A stretch of 37,883 nucleotides of DNA from a bacterium. Lineage in GTDB: Bacteria > Patescibacteriota > Dojkabacteria > JAKAPS01 > JAJZLI01. The stretch lies in assembly GCA_027459825.1 (NCBI GenBank), contig DAIDGT010000001.1:1-37883 (forward strand), given 5' to 3'. The notes beneath the pieces were generated by a model. That model had not been told where the DNA came from and searched no databases. It saw nothing but the letters and a program-made list of their open reading frames with translations. Of this stretch, positions 1,894 through 27,312 are shown piece after piece (position 1 is the first letter of the stretch; each line of letters opens with the position of its first letter). Both the position numbers and the translations under genes were made by a program.

Positions 1894-2637
1894 TTATAGT
1901 TGAGTCAATATTCTAGGAGTATTTCCTGATACAAGGATTGTATGTTCAAAATGACAAGTTAAAGAACCATCTTTAGTATACAAATCCCATCCATTATCTT
2001 TTTCTGCAATTTCTGGAGATCCCATGCTAATCATACTCTCAATTGCCAAAGTCATTCCGTCAGTAATCTGCATACCTTTTTCAGAAATCGAGTATCCAGG
2101 AATAAAAGGTTTTTCATGTAGACGATAACCAATACCATGCCCAGTAAGTTCCCTTACGACAGAATACCCTCCCTTCAAAACAGGACTTTCCATAGAAGCA
2201 GCTATATCAGAAACATAAGCCCCAGCTACGGAAGCCTTAATACCTTCATCTCTGGAAATTTTCCCGGCATGGAGAAAAGATTCTACATTAGGATCACTTT
2301 TCCCTACTTGGAAAGATGTAGCACCATCAAGATATAACCCCTTATATATGATTCCAAAGTCAATAGAAACTAAATCTCCATCCTTAATTACATAATCAGA
2401 AGGAATACCATGCACAATAGTATTATTAATGCTAATACATGAAGAAGCAGGAAAACTATCATAACCTAAAAAAGCTGGCTTGACTAAATTTTCCTTACAA
2501 AGAGACAAGGCTATTTTATCAATACTCCTAGTTGAAACACCAATAACAGTAAACCTCTTTAATTTTAAAAGAATAGATGCAAGAATCTTCCCTCCCTTTG
2601 TCATATATTCAATTTCTACTTTACTCTTTGGCACCAT
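1894..2637 (-). CDS. map: Methionine aminopeptidase, type I
   Basis: Cobalt/manganese-type metallopeptidase that removes the initiator methionine from nascent proteins in the cytoplasm. All five metal ligands of the pita-bread fold are visible: D93 (SIDFG), D104 (LYLDGA), H167 (TGHGIG), E200 (LAIESM) and E231 (CHFEHT). The conserved active-site His of VHGIP is at 76. At 247 residues there is no N-terminal zinc-finger extension, so it is the short type I form. The gene overlaps adk by 17 bases, so the two are probably translationally coupled, and an intrinsic terminator follows. In most bacteria secY-adk-map-infA are contiguous. Here secY is separated from adk by the sensor-like gene block, and infA does not follow. 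Confidence 0.95.
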   Translation of the reverse strand: MVPKSKVEIEYMTKGGKILASILLKLKRFTVIGVSTRSIDKIALSLCKENLVKPAFLGYDSFPASSCISINNTIVHGIPSDYVIKDGDLVSIDFGIIYKGLYLDGATSFQVGKSDPNVESFLHAGKISRDEGIKASVAGAYVSDIAASMESPVLKGGYSVVRELTGHGIGYRLHEKPFIPGYSISEKGMQITDGMTLAIESMISMGSPEIAEKDNGWDLYTKDGSLTCHFEHTILVSGNTPRILTQL

Positions 2638-3190
2638 AAACTATACTCAAGATAGAATTATAAACACCTTCAACACTATCTTCCCCATTAATATTAAATA
2701 TCTTTCCTTTATAGAAATCACAGATATCATTAAAATTATTTCTGTAATTCTCTAAACGATTAGAGATAGCTTCATCAGAAACATCAAGCCTTTTCTCTTC
2801 TTTCTCTCTTCCTATAATTCTATCACGTGAAGTGTCATCTTCTAATACAAAGTTTATAACAAAGTTTAAATTTACTCCGTTATAAGATAAAAATTGATCT
2901 AAAATTATAGCTTGATTCTTAGTTCTTGGGTACGCGTCAAAGATTACATTCTCTGGAAAAGAATCTTTGTTAATTCTATCAAACAAAAGTTCTGAAACTA
3001 TATCATCAGGTACCCATTTTCCCGACTTCCAATACTTTTCAAATAAAGATATACCTAAATCCGTTTTTCTAAAAAATTCATCTCTTAATATATCTCCTGT
3101 TGAAAAAACTTTAAAATTCTTCCTTTGAGAAAAAAGGTTAGCCTGAGTACCTTTACCACACCCCGATGGACCAATAAATGACAATATCAT
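2621..3190 (-). CDS. adk: Adenylate kinase
   Basis: Catalyses ATP + AMP to 2 ADP. The P-loop GPSGCGKGT is at residues 7-15, the AMP-binding STGDILR at about 30-36 and the DAYPRT motif (family DGFPRT) at about 85-90. The arginines of the LID region (DRIIGREKEEKR) are present. The 189-residue length and the lack of a cysteine-bearing LID mark the short form without zinc. The ATG at 3190 is followed at once by the conserved beta strand, so the start is secure. A minus-strand TATCAT sits 7 bases before the ATG (3198-3203), preceded by TG one base upstream, which suggests a leaderless transcript running into map. It is divergent from the histidine-kinase-like pair across only 52 bases. Confidence 0.95.
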   Translation of the reverse strand: MILSFIGPSGCGKGTQANLFSQRKNFKVFSTGDILRDEFFRKTDLGISLFEKYWKSGKWVPDDIVSELLFDRINKDSFPENVIFDAYPRTKNQAIILDQFLSYNGVNLNFVINFVLEDDTSRDRIIGREKEEKRLDVSDEAISNRLENYRNNFNDICDFYKGKIFNINGEDSVEGVYNSILSIVYGAKE

Positions 3191-3242
3191 ACTCTAAATG
3201 ATACCATAGAATACCATATTGTTGTAATATAGATATTGAAAT

Positions 3243-4328
3243 ATGAAATCTTACATGGGATTCAAATTTGATATATTCGGTATAATAAATATATCCTTAA
3301 TTTCTATACTACTTTTTCAATTAGTAGAAGTAGCAAGAATAGAAAATAGAGGCATAAATATATCTATATTGGAAATATACTTCCTAGGAGTTACATTTAC
3401 AGTAGCATCCAGCTTTATATCTAACTTAATTAATAAACAATGGATTAGATATGCAAGCTGGATAGTACTACTTATAACAGTATCAAGTGTATACAATCCT
3501 ATTGCAGCACAAACACAAATTATTACACTAATAATCTTTATAATACTTTCAATTGCAATGACTTATGTTACAAAAAAATTATCGTATTTGATAACATTTT
3601 TTATACTAGAAGCACTTTCACTATTGTACATATATAAGGAATCTCCATTTATTATAATATTCGTAACAATTTTATATATGCTTACATTTATAAGACAACA
3701 ATTTGAAGCAAAATGGAGAAAAATAAACAAATTTAATGAAATGGTAAAAGGGGAGAAAAAGAGAGAAAAACTTCATAAGATGACAATAAGATATGATAAT
3801 ATATCAATAAGTGGAATAATAAATGAAATAATTAAAATATCAAACAATAAAGATATTACATACTCTTCATATAAAACACTAACACTTTTAAAAAACACAT
3901 TCATTCAAAGACAGTATGAATTGAAGAATGTAAGATTCCAACTTTCAATGACAGATATAGCAGAAGAGATAAAGGAAGGACAAAAATTACTTCAAATAGA
4001 AAATTTTCCAATAGAATATGAAATCAATACAAATGAGATAGCTCTTACTGATAAAGAAAATATTAAGTGGGTACTTATGGGATTGATTATTTTTGTAAAG
4101 GAAAACAACATTGAAAAGATTAAAATCAATATATCTCAAGTAGCACAATTTATAAAAGTAAAGTTTACATTTCCTAACAAAATAGTATCCTATCTTCAAA
4201 AAGGTACTATATCTGACACACACAAAAACTCCCTATGGATAGATACAGTACATATCTACCAAAAACTGACAGGTGGAGAATTCAGCCTAGAGGAGAATGA
4301 ACTGTCAATTTCATTCTTAAAAGTATAA
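3243..4328 (+). CDS. Membrane-bound pseudo-histidine kinase (degenerate GHKL ATPase)
   Basis: Unrecognised as a named family. The first 150 residues contain about five or six membrane helices, followed by a basic linker and a 190-residue soluble part. That part has the layout of a sensor kinase core that has lost its residues: IRYDNISIS (about 182-190) resembles the RHDxxN box of AgrC-type kinases with Tyr in place of His. The N-box region (ENIKWVLMGLIIFVKENN) lacks the Asn. The G2 glycines are replaced by NSLWI, yet the terminal GGEFSLEENELSISF still matches the last two strands of HATPase_c. It should therefore bind neither ATP nor phosphate. It is followed after 3 bases by a second protein of the same layout, and a heterodimeric pseudokinase/kinase pair is my inference. 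No SD is seen. A TATAGAT 8 bases before the ATG is a possible -10. Confidence 0.6.
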   Translation: MKSYMGFKFDIFGIINISLISILLFQLVEVARIENRGINISILEIYFLGVTFTVASSFISNLINKQWIRYASWIVLLITVSSVYNPIAAQTQIITLIIFIILSIAMTYVTKKLSYLITFFILEALSLLYIYKESPFIIIFVTILYMLTFIRQQFEAKWRKINKFNEMVKGEKKREKLHKMTIRYDNISISGIINEIIKISNNKDITYSSYKTLTLLKNTFIQRQYELKNVRFQLSMTDIAEEIKEGQKLLQIENFPIEYEINTNEIALTDKENIKWVLMGLIIFVKENNIEKIKINISQVAQFIKVKFTFPNKIVSYLQKGTISDTHKNSLWIDTVHIYQKLTGGEFSLEENELSISFLKV

Positions 4329-4331
4329 ATT

Positions 4332-5510
4332 ATGGATCAAGAAAACAGCCACATCAAAAACGGAACAATAATGTTTGCACAAACATCAACAATAGTATTT
4401 ATCCTACTGTCTATACTAAATGCATTAAACTTTTACTTTCTAAAAAATAATGGGATAAACCCTATTTCTTATGAAATTATAATCCTTCCTCTGATATTTA
4501 CCATCCCAATAAATTTGTTAGTTCAAAAAAAGGAAAGATCATATATATGGAGTATCATAGACATTAGTATCATATTTATTTCAGGAATATTTTTAATATT
4601 AACTACATATGGATTTTATATAGGAAGTATAAATCCGTACCTATTTATCTTCATATACCCCATTCTAATAAATTCAATCTATACACCAGAATATAGATAT
4701 ATATATGTCATAGCAATAGATATTTCATTAATTGCCCTGGATATTTTTCAAAAAGTAGGGATATCACCTTATGCTTTTATACTATTTAACATATCTATAA
4801 TAATAACATCAGAAATATATAGAGTTTTTGGAGAAGATAGAAATAACCAGGTTGAAGATTTTATAGAAAGACAAGGGCAAGTTGATATATATATAGATAA
4901 TCAAAGGCAACAGACAAATTTTCTATCTAATATAAAGAAAATAATGGGAGAGTATTTAGAAAATATATCAAATGTAGAAAATATTGAATTACTCAAAATG
5001 AAATTAAGGTTATTTTTGAATAGTGTTACAAACAGAATTTCAATATTGAATCAGGAACCAAATAATATAACAGTATTTAATTTTAATCAAATATTCACGG
5101 AAGTGTTTCAGGAACTATACCCATACGTAGCAATGAAAAATTTACAAATCAGTTATTTGCCATACACAAGAGAGACATTACAACTTAATAATGACAAAAA
5201 TAAGATAAAAACAATAATTTTTAACACTCTAGAAAATGCAATGAAGTATTCATCGAATTCAGCAATAATATCAGTTAAAACGCAAGAGGTTGGTAAGAGA
5301 GTCGAAATATATATACAAAACTATAATGAACAATTTGAAAATGTAGACTACTCATCTCCTATAATAAAATCTTCAAAAGAAGGGAAGGGAGAAGGCTTTG
5401 GACTTTATATTGCTAGTGAATACGCTAAAAGTACCAAAACTAATATGAGAGTATTTAAGGATTACGCAAACTTAGTAACCTCAGAAATTAAAATTCCTAT
5501 TGTTCTATAA
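4332..5510 (+). CDS. Membrane sensor protein with histidine-kinase-like ATPase domain, phosphoacceptor His not apparent
   Basis: About six membrane helices fill residues 15-165, followed by a coiled linker and a GHKL-type ATPase region. The N-box is recognisable (FNTLENAMKYSS, about 297-308, with both Asn residues), and a G2-like loop GKGEGFGLYIASEYA (351-365) is intact. The G1 Asp-Gly motif is missing, with YIQNYNEQF in its place. The helix that should hold the phosphoacceptor reads NFLSNIKKIMGEYL (196-209), aligning with the usual FLSxxSHELRTPL but with Lys instead of His. It lies 3 bases downstream of the pseudokinase gene and shares its layout, so the two form an operon. No response regulator lies nearby. 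Its stop is separated by 3 bases from the stop of the convergent seven-helix protein. The domain call is fair; function is unknown. Confidence 0.65.
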   Translation: MDQENSHIKNGTIMFAQTSTIVFILLSILNALNFYFLKNNGINPISYEIIILPLIFTIPINLLVQKKERSYIWSIIDISIIFISGIFLILTTYGFYIGSINPYLFIFIYPILINSIYTPEYRYIYVIAIDISLIALDIFQKVGISPYAFILFNISIIITSEIYRVFGEDRNNQVEDFIERQGQVDIYIDNQRQQTNFLSNIKKIMGEYLENISNVENIELLKMKLRLFLNSVTNRISILNQEPNNITVFNFNQIFTEVFQELYPYVAMKNLQISYLPYTRETLQLNNDKNKIKTIIFNTLENAMKYSSNSAIISVKTQEVGKRVEIYIQNYNEQFENVDYSSPIIKSSKEGKGEGFGLYIASEYAKSTKTNMRVFKDYANLVTSEIKIPIVL

Positions 5511-6241: not shown

Positions 6242-7528
6242 TTACATATAACTGGTATATGACTTACTAATAAGATGGGATCTTATATTCCTAATCAGGG
6301 TAAGTATAACAGTAACAATAATCAGTATGCTAGTGCCACCAATGCTAATCGTAGTTATATTTGTATAAGCTTGTACAAAAAGAGGAATAACAGCTATGAT
6401 TGCCAAAAATATTGCCCCTACAAAAGTAAGTCTCATTAGGACTACATAAATATAATCTTCTGTTTGTCTTCCTGGGCGAAATCCAGGAATAAAACCACCC
6501 TGTTTCTGAATGTTTTTTGCAACATCCTCTGGTTTAAAGACAATAAATGTATAAAAGAATGTCATAAATACAATAAGAAGAGCATAAATTAATCCATAAT
6601 ATAACTGATTAGAGAGCGTGTTATATACGAATGTAGAAATGTTATGTACTATAAATATCTTTGATGATTCTAATATTTTAGATAACTCTTGAGGAATTAA
6701 AAGAATAGATAAAGCAAATATTATTGGCATAACTCCAGCAGTATTTATCTTCATAGGAATATACGATTTACTGCCACCAACAAGCTGCATACCTCTGGCC
6801 ATCCTAGTATAGTTTACAGGAATATTTCGGGTAGATTCATTAATAAGGATAATACCAACTATCATTAGTATAAAGAGGAGTATAAGAACGACAATTACTA
6901 TTCCGTTTAAATTTTGACTCTGTATAGTACCTATAATTGATTCAGGCATTGAGGCTAGAATACCCGCCATAATAAGAAAAGATATACCATCTCCAACACC
7001 ATATTCAGAAATAAGTTCCCCAAGCCACATTAAAAAAATTGATCCCGCAGTCATTGTCATAATGAATGTAATTAACCCTTCAATAGAAAGGGAAGAGACA
7101 ATAGGCTGTGCAGATACTGCGCCAAGAAATCTATAAATACCATATGATTGAAGCATAGCTATAGGAATTGTAAGAATTCTTGTATATTGTGTAATAATTT
7201 TTTGACCATGTTCACCTTGTTCAGACAAATCTTTAAAATGAGGAACAAGATAAACAAGAAATTGAAAAATAACAGTAGATGTAATAAAAGGTCCTAAACC
7301 AATACCAACAATAGCAGCAGTGCTTAATGTCCCTCCTGAAAAAATATTTAAGAAATTTAAGGCCTGGTTACTTTTAAAAATATAAGATAATACAGAAACA
7401 TTAATACCAGGAACAGGAATTGAAGCAAATACACGAAAAACTAATAAAAGAAGAGCTGTAAATATGATTTTCTTTCTAACATCAGGAGTATTGTAAATAT
7501 CTGATATTATCTTTAAAAATCTTTGCAT
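6242..7528 (-). CDS. secY: Preprotein translocase subunit SecY
   Basis: Channel subunit of the Sec translocon in the inner membrane. The 428-residue length, ten hydrophobic segments and family motifs are all normal: the plug region after FSGG (about 62-66), GLGPFITSTVIFQ (about 77-89), the basic cytoplasmic loop with YTRMARGMQ, and KPEDVAKNIQKQGGFIPGFRPG (near 330-350). It is the last gene of the ribosomal protein cluster and begins 4 bases after the rplO stop. Upstream AAAGGTAAG inside or just after rplO is one of the few SD-like sequences in the window. adk and map, which usually follow, lie beyond the inserted 2.9-kb block. Confidence 0.97.
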   Translation of the reverse strand: MQRFLKIISDIYNTPDVRKKIIFTALLLLVFRVFASIPVPGINVSVLSYIFKSNQALNFLNIFSGGTLSTAAIVGIGLGPFITSTVIFQFLVYLVPHFKDLSEQGEHGQKIITQYTRILTIPIAMLQSYGIYRFLGAVSAQPIVSSLSIEGLITFIMTMTAGSIFLMWLGELISEYGVGDGISFLIMAGILASMPESIIGTIQSQNLNGIVIVVLILLFILMIVGIILINESTRNIPVNYTRMARGMQLVGGSKSYIPMKINTAGVMPIIFALSILLIPQELSKILESSKIFIVHNISTFVYNTLSNQLYYGLIYALLIVFMTFFYTFIVFKPEDVAKNIQKQGGFIPGFRPGRQTEDYIYVVLMRLTFVGAIFLAIIAVIPLFVQAYTNITTISIGGTSILIIVTVILTLIRNIRSHLISKSYTSYM

Positions 7529-10010: not shown

Positions 10011-10556
10011 TTATTTAGACTTTTGTAAAGGCAAACCAAGGTGTCTTAATAACACCTCAGCTTCATGATTATCTTTCGCCGTTGTAACAATTGTAATCTG
10101 TAGTGATTTTACCCTATCAATATACTTTGTTGCAACCTCAGGGAAAACTGTATGGTCCTTAATTCCGATAGTATAGTTACCCTTTCCATCAAAAGAACCT
10201 AAAGATAAACCTCTAAAATCCCTAAATCTAGGAAATACGACAGAAACCATCTTTTCAAAAAAATCCCACATTCTTCTTCCCCTGAGAGTTACCATAAAAC
10301 CAATTTCCATACCTTCCCTAATATGAAAATTGGAAATACTCTCTCTTGCTTTTGTAACAACAGCTAATTGACCTGTAATAGATTGCAAAACATCACGAAG
10401 AGCATCCATATTCTCAGTATTAATAAAGTTTGATTTAACTCCTGAGTTAATAACAATCTTTAATAGTGTAGGAATTGAGTTAACATTACCTAGTTTAAGC
10501 TCTTTTCCAACTTCACTTTTTATTTTTTTTATATACTCTTCTTTTAATTTATTCAT
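10011..10556 (-). CDS. rplE: 50S ribosomal protein L5 (uL5)
   Basis: 5S rRNA-binding protein of 181 residues. [46 protein letters not shown] and [25 protein letters not shown] are family motifs. The start overlaps the preceding SpoU methyltransferase gene by 4 bases. That is unusual because rplX normally precedes rplE directly. The tight coupling suggests the methyltransferase is a settled member of the operon. Confidence 0.97.
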
Positions 10557-11278
10557 AAACTTTCTTGTCTAATTTTTTCAAAAATTACTATACTAACAGC
10601 ACTCGATACATTCAAAGAATTGACAAAACTTTGACTGGATTGAGGAATTGAAAGAATTTTATCACACCTTGCTATTAAAGGTTCAGATAAAGCTGCGTCC
10701 TCACCTCCGAAAAGAAATGCTACAGGACCTTTCAAATCTTCATCAAAATATCTTTTATCTCCCGAAACTTCTATTCCAAAAACCTTCACTCCATACTTTT
10801 TAAGCAAATCAATACTTTCAAAAATATTTGCACTAACAGTGTTAACATTAAAAGAAGCTCCTTCTGAAATTCTCGAAACTTCAGTAGAGCCTAACATATC
10901 TTGATTTTTCTTAGGTAAGATTATACTACCAACACCTGCAATATCACAAGATCTCATTATTGCACCTAAGTTTTGTTTATATAAAAGTTCTCTAAAAATT
11001 ACAAAGAATGGATTATCGAGAGCAACATCTTCAATGTTTTTAGGATCTGGTGCTACAAAAGATGCATCTACTCCCTGGTTTTCTTTACCCGTAAGTTTGA
11101 TACGTGAAACAAATTCTACTGCCACACCTCTAGTTTTACAAAGATCTACAATTTCTCTTATCTTTCCATCACTACTAGCATTTACATCAATTCTAACCTT
11201 AATAACTTTGCTTTTAGAATGAAGCAAAGATAAGACAGAATTTCTTCCAACTACAAAATTTAAATTACGCTCTTGCAT
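10553..11278 (-). CDS. SpoU/TrmH-family RNA 2'-O-methyltransferase (RlmB-like)
   Basis: SPOUT-class enzyme that would transfer a methyl group from SAM to a ribose 2'-OH in rRNA or tRNA. The N-terminal FVVGRNSVLSLLHSKSKV resembles the substrate-binding domain of RlmB (23S G2251). The catalytic domain has motif 1 KQNLGAIMRSCDIAG (about 121-135), motif 2 FLFGGEDAALSEPL (near 193-206) and motif 3 IPQSSQSFVNSLNVSSAVSI (near 216-235), forming the trefoil-knot SAM site. It is inserted between rplX (19-base overlap) and rplE (4-base overlap), not a usual place for this family. The target nucleotide cannot be told from sequence; RlmB is the closest layout, with TrmH-type tRNA Gm18 activity as an alternative. 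Confidence 0.88.
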   Translation of the reverse strand: MQERNLNFVVGRNSVLSLLHSKSKVIKVRIDVNASSDGKIREIVDLCKTRGVAVEFVSRIKLTGKENQGVDASFVAPDPKNIEDVALDNPFFVIFRELLYKQNLGAIMRSCDIAGVGSIILPKKNQDMLGSTEVSRISEGASFNVNTVSANIFESIDLLKKYGVKVFGIEVSGDKRYFDEDLKGPVAFLFGGEDAALSEPLIARCDKILSIPQSSQSFVNSLNVSSAVSIVIFEKIRQESL

Positions 11279-21918: not shown

Positions 21919-22557
21919 ATGTGGTTGGAATGTTTACAAGTAAAAATAAGAAAGGTAAGAGATGAAGTTAAAAAAAATATAAATATTATTGATGAAAGGG
22001 ATTTTAGGTTATCTGTATTTAATAAAGTTATAAATACGTGTACTGCAATTCTTAAATTTGAATCTATGTATAATCATCTATATGAAGAGAATAACCTTTA
22101 TAAAAATTTAGAAAAACAAGGGCAACATGAACTAGCCCTGTTAGATAGATTTATAAAAATTGCATTTGTACTTGAAACATTTATGGCAATTGACCAATTT
22201 TTTAAGGAGATTTATAAGGTAATAAAAAATGATAAAAAAGAGGAAACAATAGTAGTTATAACTCAAATTATTAACGCTCTAGCGGAAGATGGACTAGTTG
22301 ATAAAACTAATGATAACTACAAAAAATTTAAAAGTTTCAAAAATGTCAGAAATGCCAGTCATAATAATTTCATTGGTGACAATGGAGAACTGATATATGA
22401 AGCTAAAGGAAAGGTGTTCCAAAGAATCACTCCCTTAATCGAAGGATCTCTCCAGCTTGTAAAACAAACAATTTTTAAATTTGAAGAAAAGTATTCAAAA
22501 GAAAGCCATAAACCCATACTGGACCCAGCAGCTAATTTAGAAAAACAGGTTATATAG
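21919..22557 (+). CDS. Helical hypothetical protein, possibly HEPN-like
   Basis: The 212-residue protein appears entirely alpha-helical and soluble. The motif FKNVRNASHNNF (about 142-153) recalls the Arg-Asn...His motif of HEPN-domain ribonucleases, but the spacing (R-x3-H) is shorter than the canonical R-x4-6-H. The HEPN idea is therefore weak, and no nucleotidyltransferase partner is adjacent. The stop lies inside the convergent cyoE stop region, with an 8-base overlap. Several starts are possible near the 5' end (MWLECLQ); no SD is seen. Function is unknown. Confidence 0.5.
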   Translation: MWLECLQVKIRKVRDEVKKNINIIDERDFRLSVFNKVINTCTAILKFESMYNHLYEENNLYKNLEKQGQHELALLDRFIKIAFVLETFMAIDQFFKEIYKVIKNDKKEETIVVITQIINALAEDGLVDKTNDNYKKFKSFKNVRNASHNNFIGDNGELIYEAKGKVFQRITPLIEGSLQLVKQTIFKFEEKYSKESHKPILDPAANLEKQVI

Positions 22558-23398
22558 CCATACCTACGCAAATAAAGAGTAGTACAAAAAGAGATATAAA
22601 AAACATCCTACGTGCCCACCATCTACTATCCTTTATAAAAAATCCCAAAATTCCAAAGAAAAACCATACAATACAGGATAATAAAGCAATCAATAAATAT
22701 ACATAACCAGTATATTTAAACGTAAATAGTGCCACTACAGATAATGAAAAAACAAGGATAAAAGAGATGATATGCCATTTTGTGTTTAATATTCCCATCT
22801 TAACTGGCCAGATTTTTAATTTTGAAGATTTATAATCCTTAAGACGGTAAATAGCAATTGAATAGAAATGTGGAATTTGCCACAAAACAAGAATGAAGAA
22901 AAGTATCAAAACCTCCCAATCAATTTTTCCAGAAACAGCAGTATATCCAGAAACAATAGGCATTGCTCCTGAAAAACTACCTGCAATAGTACTATATATA
23001 GTTGTGCGCTTTGCAATACTATATACAACAGTGTAGGCAACATAACCTGAAACACCTACTAGAAAAGTAGTAACATTTGTACCTACAGCTAAAAACAAAA
23101 ACCCTATTAACCCTAACACCAGAGCGTATTGCACTGCACTCTTTCCATTAATATTTCCAGATACTAAAGATCTACCCTTAGTTCTTTCCATTTGCGAGTC
23201 AATATCCCTGTCAATATAGTTATTAACAACACTTGCAGACGCTATCACAAATGACATTCCTAAAGCGACAAATATCAATGTAGTAAGATGAAAGCCGTAA
23301 ATCTTTGATGCTAGAAAAAATGAGGCCAGAATAGAAATCAAATTTCCATAAACCATTCCTGGTTTTGCCAAATTGTAGTATTTAGAAATGTTTTTCAC
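22550..23398 (-). CDS. cyoE: Protoheme IX farnesyltransferase (heme O synthase)
   Basis: UbiA-type prenyltransferase that adds the farnesyl tail to heme b, producing heme O for the bo3 oxidase. It has about eight or nine membrane helices. The first Asp-rich motif is NNYIDRDIDSQMERTKGRSL (about 59-78), and the second, YRLKDYKSSKLKIWPV, lies near 184-199. Length is 282 residues, close to E. coli CyoE. The start overlaps cyoD by 4 bases. It is the last gene of a full cyoABCDE operon. Heme b itself must come from elsewhere; no heme biosynthesis gene is in the window. Confidence 0.95.
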   Translation of the reverse strand: MKNISKYYNLAKPGMVYGNLISILASFFLASKIYGFHLTTLIFVALGMSFVIASASVVNNYIDRDIDSQMERTKGRSLVSGNINGKSAVQYALVLGLIGFLFLAVGTNVTTFLVGVSGYVAYTVVYSIAKRTTIYSTIAGSFSGAMPIVSGYTAVSGKIDWEVLILFFILVLWQIPHFYSIAIYRLKDYKSSKLKIWPVKMGILNTKWHIISFILVFSLSVVALFTFKYTGYVYLLIALLSCIVWFFFGILGFFIKDSRWWARRMFFISLFVLLFICVGMAI

Positions 23399-23790
23399 AA
23401 AGCTGCCCCCTGAGAATTCATATATTGAATCATTTGTTTTGTAGTAGGCATCATCTTAGAATTTAAATTAGTCATAATCCATAAGGATCCAATTACAAGA
23501 ATAGAGACAATCATAATCATAAAAAGGAAAATGTATAAATTCCATTTTGACTGTGCCTTACTCCCTATGTGGAAGAAAAAAATAAGTTGAACAAATAACT
23601 GAATTAAAGCTAAGAATATAAGTACTGCAACTATTTCCCACCCCGACAATATATGAGCAATTGTTATAACAAATGCAGTTAGAGTAAGCAGTATAGAAAG
23701 TGCAAACCCAACTATATAAACCTTAACTTCTGCTGCATGCTCTCTCCAGTCACTAATTATTTGAGGTGTCTCTATATCCATATTATGCAA
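23395..23790 (-). CDS. cyoD: Cytochrome bo3 quinol oxidase subunit IV
   Basis: A 131-residue protein with three membrane helices (about 23-47, 51-73 and 83-107), matching CyoD topology. VYIVGFALSILLTLTAFVITI and the later FFHIGSKAQSKWN are recognisable. Residues 108-131 form an extra soluble tail. Subunit IV assists assembly of the CuB centre. It overlaps cyoC by 8 bases and cyoE by 4. Confidence 0.9.
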   Translation of the reverse strand: MHNMDIETPQIISDWREHAAEVKVYIVGFALSILLTLTAFVITIAHILSGWEIVAVLIFLALIQLFVQLIFFFHIGSKAQSKWNLYIFLFMIMIVSILVIGSLWIMTNLNSKMMPTTKQMIQYMNSQGAAL

Positions 23791-24385
23791 TTCCCATCAT
23801 ATAAACGATAGTAAATATAAATATCCATATAATATCAAGAAAATGCCAAAAAAGGCTGAGTAAAGTTAAACGCCTGACAGAAGATTTTGTAAGTCCTTTG
23901 GTATAAATACGAATCATGAGTATAAGCATTCCAATAAGCCCAACAGTAACATGTAATCCATGAGTACCAACTAAGGTAAAATATGAAGATAAAAATGCAC
24001 TCCTCTTAAAAGAATTCCCTACATTTATAAGATGCGCAAATTCTACAATTTCCATAATTACAAAACTAACACCTAATAAAAATGTTACAGAAAACCAACC
24101 AATAACCCTATTTTTTTGCATGTTATAGGCACTAATAAGTCCAATTCCACAAGTAAAACTACTAGAGAGTAGGGCTAGTGTTTCTATCAATACATAGTGA
24201 GGAGAAAAAATTTGGGAACCAGATGGCCCCCCAAATGTATTATTGTGCAACACAGCATAAACAGCAAAAAGAGCTGCAAAGAGAACACAATCAGTCATAA
24301 GATAAATCCAAAAACCAAATACAATGGTATCATCAGTCTTATCATATTTAGGAGCTTCTTGTATTTGAGTATCTATATCTTCCAT
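23783..24385 (-). CDS. cyoC: Cytochrome bo3 quinol oxidase subunit III
   Basis: A 200-residue, five-helix COX3-family protein. FGFWIYLMTDCVLFAALFAVY (about 24-44), the glutamate-containing helix VIMEIVEFAHLI, THGLHVTVGLIGM and the terminal WHFLDIIWIFIFTIVYMMG match CyoC closely. It overlaps cyoB by 13 bases and cyoD by 8. Confidence 0.95.
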   Translation of the reverse strand: MEDIDTQIQEAPKYDKTDDTIVFGFWIYLMTDCVLFAALFAVYAVLHNNTFGGPSGSQIFSPHYVLIETLALLSSSFTCGIGLISAYNMQKNRVIGWFSVTFLLGVSFVIMEIVEFAHLINVGNSFKRSAFLSSYFTLVGTHGLHVTVGLIGMLILMIRIYTKGLTKSSVRRLTLLSLFWHFLDIIWIFIFTIVYMMGIA

Positions 24386-26340
24386 TGTACTTTTTTATCA
24401 ATTTCAGCAACTTTTGATGCAGTAAGTATATATTCAGTTTCCTCATCAGTTGTTCTTATCATAATAAACACAATAACTGCAATCAAAGACAGTATTAAAA
24501 GCCACCATATATGCCATACTGCAGAAAATCCAAAAAGACAAGCTGCTGAACCTATATACATAGCAATAGGAGTATTTTTTACAATCTCAATATCAGTGTA
24601 TTCCTTATTATTGCTATTCAAACCTCTTTGTTTTTTCTCCCAAAAATCGTCCCTATTACTAACCTCAGGTAATATAGCAAAATTGAAAAATGGAGGAGGA
24701 GAAGATGTCGACCATTCCAAGGTTCTGCCATCCCAAGGATCTCCTGTTATATCAATATTATCATTCCTCTTTCTATAAGAGACAATAAGCTGAATAAATT
24801 GAAATAGTACTGCCAAGGCAATAATAAATACACCCACCCCAGCAACAATAAATAATGGTTGCCAACCCGTATATGCAGGATAATGGTCAAGACGTCTTGT
24901 TGCCCCCATAAGACCTAGTATATATAAAGGTCCAAATGCAACAACAAAACCTATTATCCAAAGATATGCAGCAACTCTTCCATATACATCAATAAGCTTA
25001 AATCCAAAAATTTTAGGAAACCAATACATTACACCTATAAAATCCCCGAATAAAACACCTGAAACAATCATTGTATGGAAATGGGCAACAAGAAATAAAC
25101 TATTATGTAGCTGGTAATCTATTGCAGGTACTGCCATCATAACACCAGCAACACCACCCAAAGTGAATAAAAATATAAACCCTAAAAAGAATATCATTGA
25201 AGCATTAAATTTAATTCTTCCCCTAAACATTGTAAAAAGCCAATTAAATATTTTTACCCCCGTAGGAACGGCAATAATCATAGTCATCATTCCAAAAAAA
25301 GCATTTACATCAACCCCTGCCCCCATTGTAAAGAAATGATGAAGCCATACAATAAAAGATAAAAATACTATTGCCCAAATTGCTAAAACCATTGATCTAT
25401 AACCAAAAAGTCTTTTTCTGGAAAAAACAGATACCACCTCCGAAAAAATACCAAATGCAGGAAGTACCAATATGTATACTTCAGGATGTCCCCACGACCA
25501 AATGAGGTTCACATACATCATCATATTTCCACCACCGGAAGCAGTAAAAAAATGAGTTCCAATAGTTCTATCAAGATATAAAAGTGCAAGAGTAACAGTC
25601 AAAATAGGAAATGCTAAAATTACAAGAGACATGGTGCCAAAAACACTCCATGTAAAAAGAGGCATCTTCATTAAAGCCATTCCTTTGCACCTGAGCTTTA
25701 TTATAGTAACAAGAAAATTTATCCCTGAAAATAAACTGCCTAAACCTGCAATTTGTAACGACCAAATCCAATAATCAACACCTACACCAGGACTGTATTT
25801 AAGCTCTGACAGAGGAGGATATGAGAGCCATCCTGCATATGTAAAGTTCCCTATTATCAAAGATGCATTCATAAGAACCATACCTGCAGCAAACAACCAA
25901 AAGCTAGTGGCATTTAAAAAGGGAAAAGCAACATCCCTAGAACCAATCTGCAAAGGCAAAACAAGATTTACAATACCAAACAGAAACCCCATTGCAACAA
26001 AGAAAATCATAATGACACCATGAGCGGAAAAAATCTGCTGAAAGTGATTAGCAGAAACTATACCATGAGAAGCACCTACAGATGTAGCTTGCTGAGTTCT
26101 TAGAAGAACCACATCGGCAAAACCTCTAATCCCCATTATAATAGATACAAAGATATACATAACACCAATTTTCTTATGGTCAGTGGTAGTAATCCACTCT
26201 TTCCACAACCAACTCCACCTTTTCGTATATGTAACATAAAAAATACCAAATATTATAGCAACAATCATCATCATAGCACCGCCTAAGGTGACCATGTCAT
26301 GAGGAAGTGCATTTATAGAAAGTTTACCTAAGATATTCAT
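24373..26340 (-). CDS. cyoB: Cytochrome bo3 quinol oxidase subunit I
   Basis: Catalytic proton-pumping subunit with heme b, heme o3 and CuB in the membrane; it reduces oxygen with electrons from quinol. Similarity to E. coli CyoB is very high along the full 655 residues. The low-spin heme ligand region QQIFSAHGVIMIFF (His107), the CuB site WGHPEVYI with the later LHHFFTMGAG, and the high-spin heme region VAHFHTMIV are intact. The residues that form the quinol site in E. coli (R71, D75, H98, Q101) have counterparts at R72, D76, H99 and Q102. The K-channel segment and the GDPWDGRTLEWSTSSPPP motif are also present. It starts 2 bases after cyoA. Confidence 0.98.
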   Translation of the reverse strand: MNILGKLSINALPHDMVTLGGAMMMIVAIIFGIFYVTYTKRWSWLWKEWITTTDHKKIGVMYIFVSIIMGIRGFADVVLLRTQQATSVGASHGIVSANHFQQIFSAHGVIMIFFVAMGFLFGIVNLVLPLQIGSRDVAFPFLNATSFWLFAAGMVLMNASLIIGNFTYAGWLSYPPLSELKYSPGVGVDYWIWSLQIAGLGSLFSGINFLVTIIKLRCKGMALMKMPLFTWSVFGTMSLVILAFPILTVTLALLYLDRTIGTHFFTASGGGNMMMYVNLIWSWGHPEVYILVLPAFGIFSEVVSVFSRKRLFGYRSMVLAIWAIVFLSFIVWLHHFFTMGAGVDVNAFFGMMTMIIAVPTGVKIFNWLFTMFRGRIKFNASMIFFLGFIFLFTLGGVAGVMMAVPAIDYQLHNSLFLVAHFHTMIVSGVLFGDFIGVMYWFPKIFGFKLIDVYGRVAAYLWIIGFVVAFGPLYILGLMGATRRLDHYPAYTGWQPLFIVAGVGVFIIALAVLFQFIQLIVSYRKRNDNIDITGDPWDGRTLEWSTSSPPPFFNFAILPEVSNRDDFWEKKQRGLNSNNKEYTDIEIVKNTPIAMYIGSAACLFGFSAVWHIWWLLILSLIAVIVFIMIRTTDEETEYILTASKVAEIDKKVQWKI

Positions 26341-26342
26341 AA

Positions 26343-27242
26343 CTACCCCTTTGAATCTGTCAACATAATTGGACCACCAAATACAGGAACCATGTAATTT
26401 TCAACTATTGCATTAAACAACCCCGTATCCTTCAAAGAATATATTTTTTTATGGTTATATGAACTAGGTTTAGCTAATTTTTTATAACTTGTCATTGTAA
26501 GAATATTTGATGACCTATTAGCTGATTCTATCCATTTATTAAAATTTTTTAAAGAAGAAACTTGGACAGCAAATCTCATTCCTGCAAATCCTGAACCACT
26601 AATATTTGAAGACACACCATAATATGTACCTTTATTATATGCTAGAATATGTATCTTAGTTTCCATACCAGGCATCGTCATAATTTGCCCTGCAAGGTTT
26701 GGAATCCAAAATGCATTCATCACTGTATCAGAGGTTAATTCAAAATCTATTGGGGTATTTTGGGGAATCTCAATAAAATTTACTGATGCAACTTTCTCTT
26801 TTGGATAGATAAAAAGCCATTTCCAGTCAAGAGAAATAACTTGAATAGTAATTGGTGGCACTTTTGACTTTATGGGCTTATAGTAATTTAAAGTTGAGGA
26901 AGTGTGCCATACAATTAGAGATAAGACAAGAATTATTGCGGCAGGAATTGCCCACCATATAATCTCTAACAAAGGATCACTGTCCCACTCTGGAGAATAA
27001 TTAGCCCCATCATTCCCCTCTCTGTACTTATATGCAGTAAATATAGTTAAAAAAAATAAAGGAACAACAACAATAGAGATCAAAAGGCATACTGTAATTA
27101 TAAGACCTTTTTCTTTACTAGCAATAAGACCTTTTGGATTAAGCACAGCAATATTCTTCCCATGAAGTAGAAACATCGTACCAAAAACAGCAACACAAAG
27201 AAGAATTAAAGTAATAAATATAAACCTAAGAGTTTTTTTCAT
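26343..27242 (-). CDS. cyoA: Cytochrome bo3 quinol oxidase subunit II
   Basis: Two N-terminal membrane helices are followed by a periplasmic cupredoxin domain. SLDWKWLFIYP (about 138-148) and the C-terminal YYGVSSNISGSGFAGMRF replace the CuA-binding Cys motif of cytochrome c oxidases, so this is the quinol-oxidase type. I prefer the ATG at 27242 (MKKTLRFIF, 299 residues), which starts directly with the signal-like helix; the track start at 27281 and an ATG at 27272 would add 13 or 10 residues with no family support. E. coli CyoA is a lipoprotein, but here the helix end reads TMFLLHGKN without the lipobox Cys. The protein ends at MLTDSKG without the long His-rich tail of E. coli. Confidence 0.93.
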   Translation of the reverse strand: MKKTLRFIFITLILLCVAVFGTMFLLHGKNIAVLNPKGLIASKEKGLIITVCLLISIVVVPLFFLTIFTAYKYREGNDGANYSPEWDSDPLLEIIWWAIPAAIILVLSLIVWHTSSTLNYYKPIKSKVPPITIQVISLDWKWLFIYPKEKVASVNFIEIPQNTPIDFELTSDTVMNAFWIPNLAGQIMTMPGMETKIHILAYNKGTYYGVSSNISGSGFAGMRFAVQVSSLKNFNKWIESANRSSNILTMTSYKKLAKPSSYNHKKIYSLKDTGLFNAIVENYMVPVFGGPIMLTDSKG

Positions 27243-27312
27243 GATACAGTCTATGCAAAAGTATCCTAACATATTTACCACTAAAAAAGAACCTATTCAT
27301 GAGGAAGAAAAC

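Follow-up and report, generated by a model that had tools for sequence, protein, structure and literature searches.

Two membrane pseudokinase genes between adk and secY

Two genes lie in tandem on the forward strand of the window (the whole stretch of DNA analysed, 37,883 nucleotides), which comes from a 764 kb genome in 32 contigs with a completeness of 89.75%. The first, P1 (3243..4328), encodes a six-helix membrane pseudo-histidine-kinase of 361 amino acids devoid of H, N, G1 and G2 boxes; the second, P2 (4332..5510), encodes a six-helix membrane pseudo-histidine-kinase of 392 amino acids that has lost the acceptor His and partly kept its ATP site. Both assignments combine the open reading frame with alignment, structural model and Foldseek, to which Pfam is added for P2. 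The two genes are separated by 3 nt and run antisense to the ribosomal-protein operon, at a site between secY and adk/map. On the P1 side the constant neighbour is the adenylate kinase gene adk (2621..3190, reverse strand), with map beyond it (1894-2637, reverse strand); on the P2 side it is secY (6242..7528, reverse strand), adk and secY being assigned from gene calls and synteny. The adk and P1 genes diverge from a 52-bp intergenic segment (3191..3242). A scan for promoter and terminator signals, in which this segment was searched for promoters, returned none above chance.

Several other features of the window are worth recording. A 226-aa multi-helix membrane protein without a Pfam family match is encoded between secY and P2 (5514-6194, reverse strand) in genomes G000 and G001 and is absent from this site in the other genomes of the family. 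Within the ribosomal operon, rplO directly follows rpsE, with no rpmD (L30) between them, and a SpoU-family rRNA methyltransferase gene (10553-11278, reverse strand) sits beside the L24/L5 genes, a place that it also occupies in several genomes of the family and not in G005. The rpsE-rplO arrangement and the small size of the genome suggest a lineage within Patescibacteria/CPR. Farther along lies a terminal oxidase cluster (22550-27281, reverse strand) comprising COX1, COX2 with COX_ARM, COX3, COX4_pro and UbiA, notable for so small a genome.

Fold and domain architecture

According to structural models and hydropathy, each protein begins with about six hydrophobic helices, continues with a long helical hairpin of DHp type and ends in an alpha/beta domain, whose elements follow the GHKL order in the models of both. 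This bears out the first-pass annotation, which had described five or six N-terminal helices and a GHKL-like C-terminus and had proposed structure prediction of each chain and comparison with HATPase_c as checks. Each single chain indeed folds in silico into a histidine-kinase layout. In the P1 model (pLDDT 77) the six N-terminal helices are followed by a long helix (residues 136-199), a helix at 203-226 completing the DHp and the elements of the GHKL domain; the P2 model is good for the cytoplasmic half and of low quality for the membrane half (pLDDT below 50). Foldseek searches of the PDB with P1 returned histidine-kinase cytoplasmic regions (best E 3.2e-7, probability 1.00), among them ZraS and RetS and also DivL and DesK, with RetS structures among the best matches. 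The same kind of region was returned for P2 (BceS, ZraS, GacS, ThkA; best E 2.9e-12). At the level of sequence, P2 matches Pfam HATPase_c (E 1.3e-5) and exceeds the cut-off of HATPase_c_5. No Pfam family matched P1 and a sequence search of the PDB with P1 gave nothing meaningful; its relation to HATPase_c comes from Foldseek and from alignment of its profile with that of P2 (hhalign 85%, 95% in global mode). A GHKL CA fold after a DHp hairpin is thus supported for both proteins by models and Foldseek, and for P2 by Pfam as well.

Conservation and selection

A search of relatives found P1 and P2 at the same site in all eight sampled genomes of the bacterial family of the source genome (here f1). 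The two genes are adjacent, in the same order and flanked by adk and secY in seven; in the eighth (G007) a contig gap splits the pair, so that one contig end carries P1 with the beginning of P2 and another carries the remainder of P2, next to secY. Chance and an assembly artefact are both rejected on the strength of the identical site in eight genomes. Identity between homologues is 19-31% across genera and 86-88% inside a genus. Profile searches of 86 genomes of the class and 380 of the phylum detected no full-length P1 relative outside f1, the three partial matches all being DHp/CA stretches of long kinases. In the 22 loci read from relatives outside f1, what comes immediately after secY is usually adk and/or map or the operon genes next in line, and in no case P1/P2; therefore the pair was most likely inserted at the secY/adk site in the f1 line. 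Nothing specific on this pseudokinase family in Patescibacteria/CPR was found in the literature.

The pair is under constraint. Between G000 and G001, dN/dS is 0.117 for P1 and 0.084 for P2, to be set beside 0.127 for adk, 0.112 for map, 0.039 for secY and 0.086-0.111 for intact kinases; all are approximate values from a single species pair with a dS of 0.6-0.7. P1 and P2 thus combine a kinase fold lacking catalytic residues with purifying selection, as expected of pseudo-histidine-kinases.

Loss of catalytic residues

P1 has none of the H, N, G1 and G2 boxes in any of its eight homologues, going beyond the absence of His, N-box and G2 already noticed on first reading. Its invariant residues include Asp270 (4050..4052), in the linker or first CA helix, Trp332 (4236..4238), within the stretch that replaces G2, and Gly344. 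A single alignment column (327) shows His in at least three rows, and it is not conserved.

The decay of P2 is partial. Alignment with intact paralogues places the remnant of the H-box at residues 196-209 (NFLSNIKKIMGEYL; 4917..4958), where Lys203 stands at the acceptor position; the eight genomes carry K, K, F, R, L, L, S and F there. In P2 no column reaches three rows with His, and the G001 orthologue contains no histidine at all. The N-box (FNTLENAMKYS, residues 297-307; 5220..5252) has an invariant Glu301-Asn302. Its first Asn varies between N, E and Y, being Glu or Tyr in 6/8, and the second is kept family-wide. In the G1 equivalent (residues 326-335; 5307..5336) DxGxG is lost and the glycines are absent from all eight homologues; an invariant Asn330 occupies the Asp position, as does, by alignment, an Asn in ThkA, a kinase solved with ADP and Mg (3a0t). 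The G2 box (GEGFGLYIA, residues 353-361; 5388..5414) is kept, Gly355, Gly357 and Leu358 being invariant. Among columns with a residue in every one of the eight rows, the invariants of P2 are F249, P264, E301, N302, N330, G355, G357 and L358. Six of these eight fall inside the segments taken as N, G1 and G2, for which the hypergeometric P is 3e-5; the motif limits were of our own choosing. Together, the residues of the alignment make nucleotide binding by P2 probable and, because the first N-box Asn and the G1 glycines are lost, no more than that.

The initial description of P2 as keeping N-box and G2 while lacking G1 and the acceptor His therefore stands for G2, G1 and His; of the N-box only the second Asn is retained. 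The suggestion that the two proteins are similarly degraded does not hold, P1 being far more degraded than P2. On the other hand, the proposal that signalling does not proceed by phosphotransfer agrees with the alignments, in which neither the eight P1 nor the eight P2 homologues have a conserved phospho-acceptor His of their own.

Related kinase pairs and the origin of P1/P2

The f1 genomes contain two more tandem pairs (A and B) of six-helix kinases, about 410-420 aa long and likewise asymmetrically decayed. Pair A adjoins a gene for a class-V aminotransferase (cysteine-desulfurase-like). Its first member has no acceptor His in any f1 genome and has intact N, G1 and G2; its second member has the motif SHELR[ST]P, with G2 weakened in genus g2. 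In genus g1, pair A is present twice, with an opposite-strand gene between the copies (L099 2743-8734). Pair B occurs in 7/8 f1 genomes and is then followed by a receiver-only regulator; its first member is intact and its second has degenerate N, G1 and G2 boxes and, in g1, no His. The sister family f2 has a six-helix homologue of pair B's second member that is fully degenerate (L124 3108-4340, L125 3386-4588); it adjoins a receiver gene and has no intact kinase as a neighbour.

P2 aligns over its full length with the kinases of pairs A and B (hmmsearch E 1e-15 to 1e-19) and with both members of pair A at 99.9% in hhalign, which identifies it, on sequence grounds, as their full-length paralogue. 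P1 is closest to P2 (hhalign 95%) and then to the first member of pair A, which has no acceptor His (92.5%). These profile scores, along with a gene order matching that of pair A, suggest that P1/P2 arose by duplication of pair A, which sits at a different locus. This derivation is no more than likely, because the maximum-likelihood tree leaves P1 and P2 on long branches; it places P2 outside the other kinases and does not settle the branching points. Origin of P1 from the degenerate member of pair B is unsupported, P1 being nearer to P2 and pair A. Pair B is also unlikely to be an obligate partner: one genome (G004) lacks its specific member and retains P1/P2.

The genome has five response-regulator matches. 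Two of these are receiver-only genes that have no adjoining kinase in the stretches read (L104 3921-4298 and L102 3291-3674); there are also H-bearing kinases to which no regulator is linked. The first of these receiver genes lies near genes that, judged by sequence, resemble pilM/pilN/pilO, and receivers of similar size occur in all f1 genomes. Hence the statement that the pair has no response regulator is right for the locus, where the neighbours in f1 genomes are secY and adk; for the genome as a whole it is not.

Possible mode of action

The presence in the same genomes of other tandem pairs with complementary decay strengthens the reading of P1/P2 as a paired sensor: within a set of paired sensors they are probably the most degenerate, and they probably form a heterodimer. 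Our preferred reading, to which we give a probability of about one half, is that they constitute a pseudokinase complex modulating intact sister kinases. The two genes would be co-transcribed, and their products would join through the membrane and DHp helices, with nucleotide bound by P2 and not by P1. The signal may be sensed within the membrane, since an extracellular domain is absent. As with RocA and CovS, the output would be a change of shape by which an intact sister kinase becomes more or less active; the first candidate is the H-bearing member of pair A. Through this kinase the effect would reach a response regulator that is not linked to the pair. Five regulator matches, including the two receivers with no kinase alongside, mean that possible targets exist.

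Other modes of action fit parts of the data. We consider it possible, with the odds well against it, that the two co-inherited pseudo-histidine-kinases form a receptor working by nucleotide-dependent shape change only, with neither a phosphorylated His nor a response regulator. The same doubtful standing applies to a stand-alone version free of phosphotransfer, in which nucleotide or ligand binding would reshape the P1/P2 dimer and the dimer would directly affect some target other than a kinase, such as a protein of the membrane or of nucleotide metabolism, no two-component partner being involved. The lack of an acceptor in either protein and of a linked regulator would suit such a receptor, as would the constant secY/adk placement, divergent from adk; yet placement need not mean function, and the known cases of such degenerate kinases considered here (FasB/FasC, RocA, RetS) act on sister kinases.

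It is unlikely that P2 is an active kinase that, within mixed dimers, phosphorylates a sister kinase on its acceptor His, as proposed for FasB and FasC (PMC12675982). Invariance of Asn302, at the Mg-binding N-box position, and of the G2 glycines, together with the ThkA parallel at G1, would be compatible with catalysis, but the substitutions at the first N-box Asn and the universal loss of the G1 glycines count against it, and the neighbour P1 has no acceptor to offer. Slightly less probable still is a dominant-negative brake, with P1/P2 merely sequestering or competing for membrane and DHp surfaces and nucleotide being irrelevant. P1, with no nucleotide site whatsoever, could act in this way, and an overexpressed RocA truncated of its CA domain is reported to complement a rocA mutant (PMC7028121); such a brake leaves the clustered invariance at the P2 nucleotide site unexplained. 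Finally, that the genes are decaying remnants of a former sensor kinase pair, as missing catalytic residues might suggest, is highly improbable and is refuted by open frames with identical losses in 8/8 genomes, none of which has the intact boxes in sister genomes that would have marked the pair as pseudogenes, and by dN/dS values of about 0.1, similar to those of adk and the intact kinases.

With a size of about 0.6-0.9 Mb, these genomes retain as many as three kinds of tandem six-helix sensor pairs, each dividing the catalytic residues differently between its partners. Ordered from complementary kinases to a pair fully devoid of acceptors, the pairs form a natural series, which makes the transition from kinase to pseudokinase partner directly testable.

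Comparison with known systems

Heteromeric sensor kinases have been described as rare (PMC12675982). In group A Streptococcus, FasB and FasC are six-helix, sensor-kinase-like products of adjacent genes that form a heterodimer by two-hybrid; FasC is a proposed pseudokinase that nevertheless keeps its acceptor His (H246), and the cognate regulator FasA is encoded in the operon (PMC12675982). Compared by description and not by sequence, P1/P2 resemble this system as two adjacent six-helix sensor-kinase-like genes, and they are kept as a unit in 8/8 genomes, a point that the first-pass annotation had proposed as a check. Unlike FasB/FasC, neither partner supplies an acceptor His and no regulator is present in the locus. 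RocA is described as a six-helix membrane pseudokinase with a DHp, a degenerate CA domain and a dispensable His, which interacts with CovS and modulates it (PMC7028121). P1/P2 share this architecture and differ in being a pair, where RocA is a single gene. RetS, whose structures are among the best matches of the P1 model, has a degenerate HATPase without G boxes and modulates GacS; it retains an H-box and receiver domains (PMC5992135), and P1/P2 have neither. Nearer at hand, pairs A and B are likewise tandem, six-helix and asymmetrically decayed; unlike in P1/P2, an acceptor His remains in each of them and one ATP site or more is intact. Since heteromeric and pseudokinase sensors are already known, P1/P2 are better called a new variant than the new sensory system envisaged at the outset. 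The parts have precedents in FasB/FasC, RocA and RetS; a conserved pair with an acceptor in neither partner is new as a variant.
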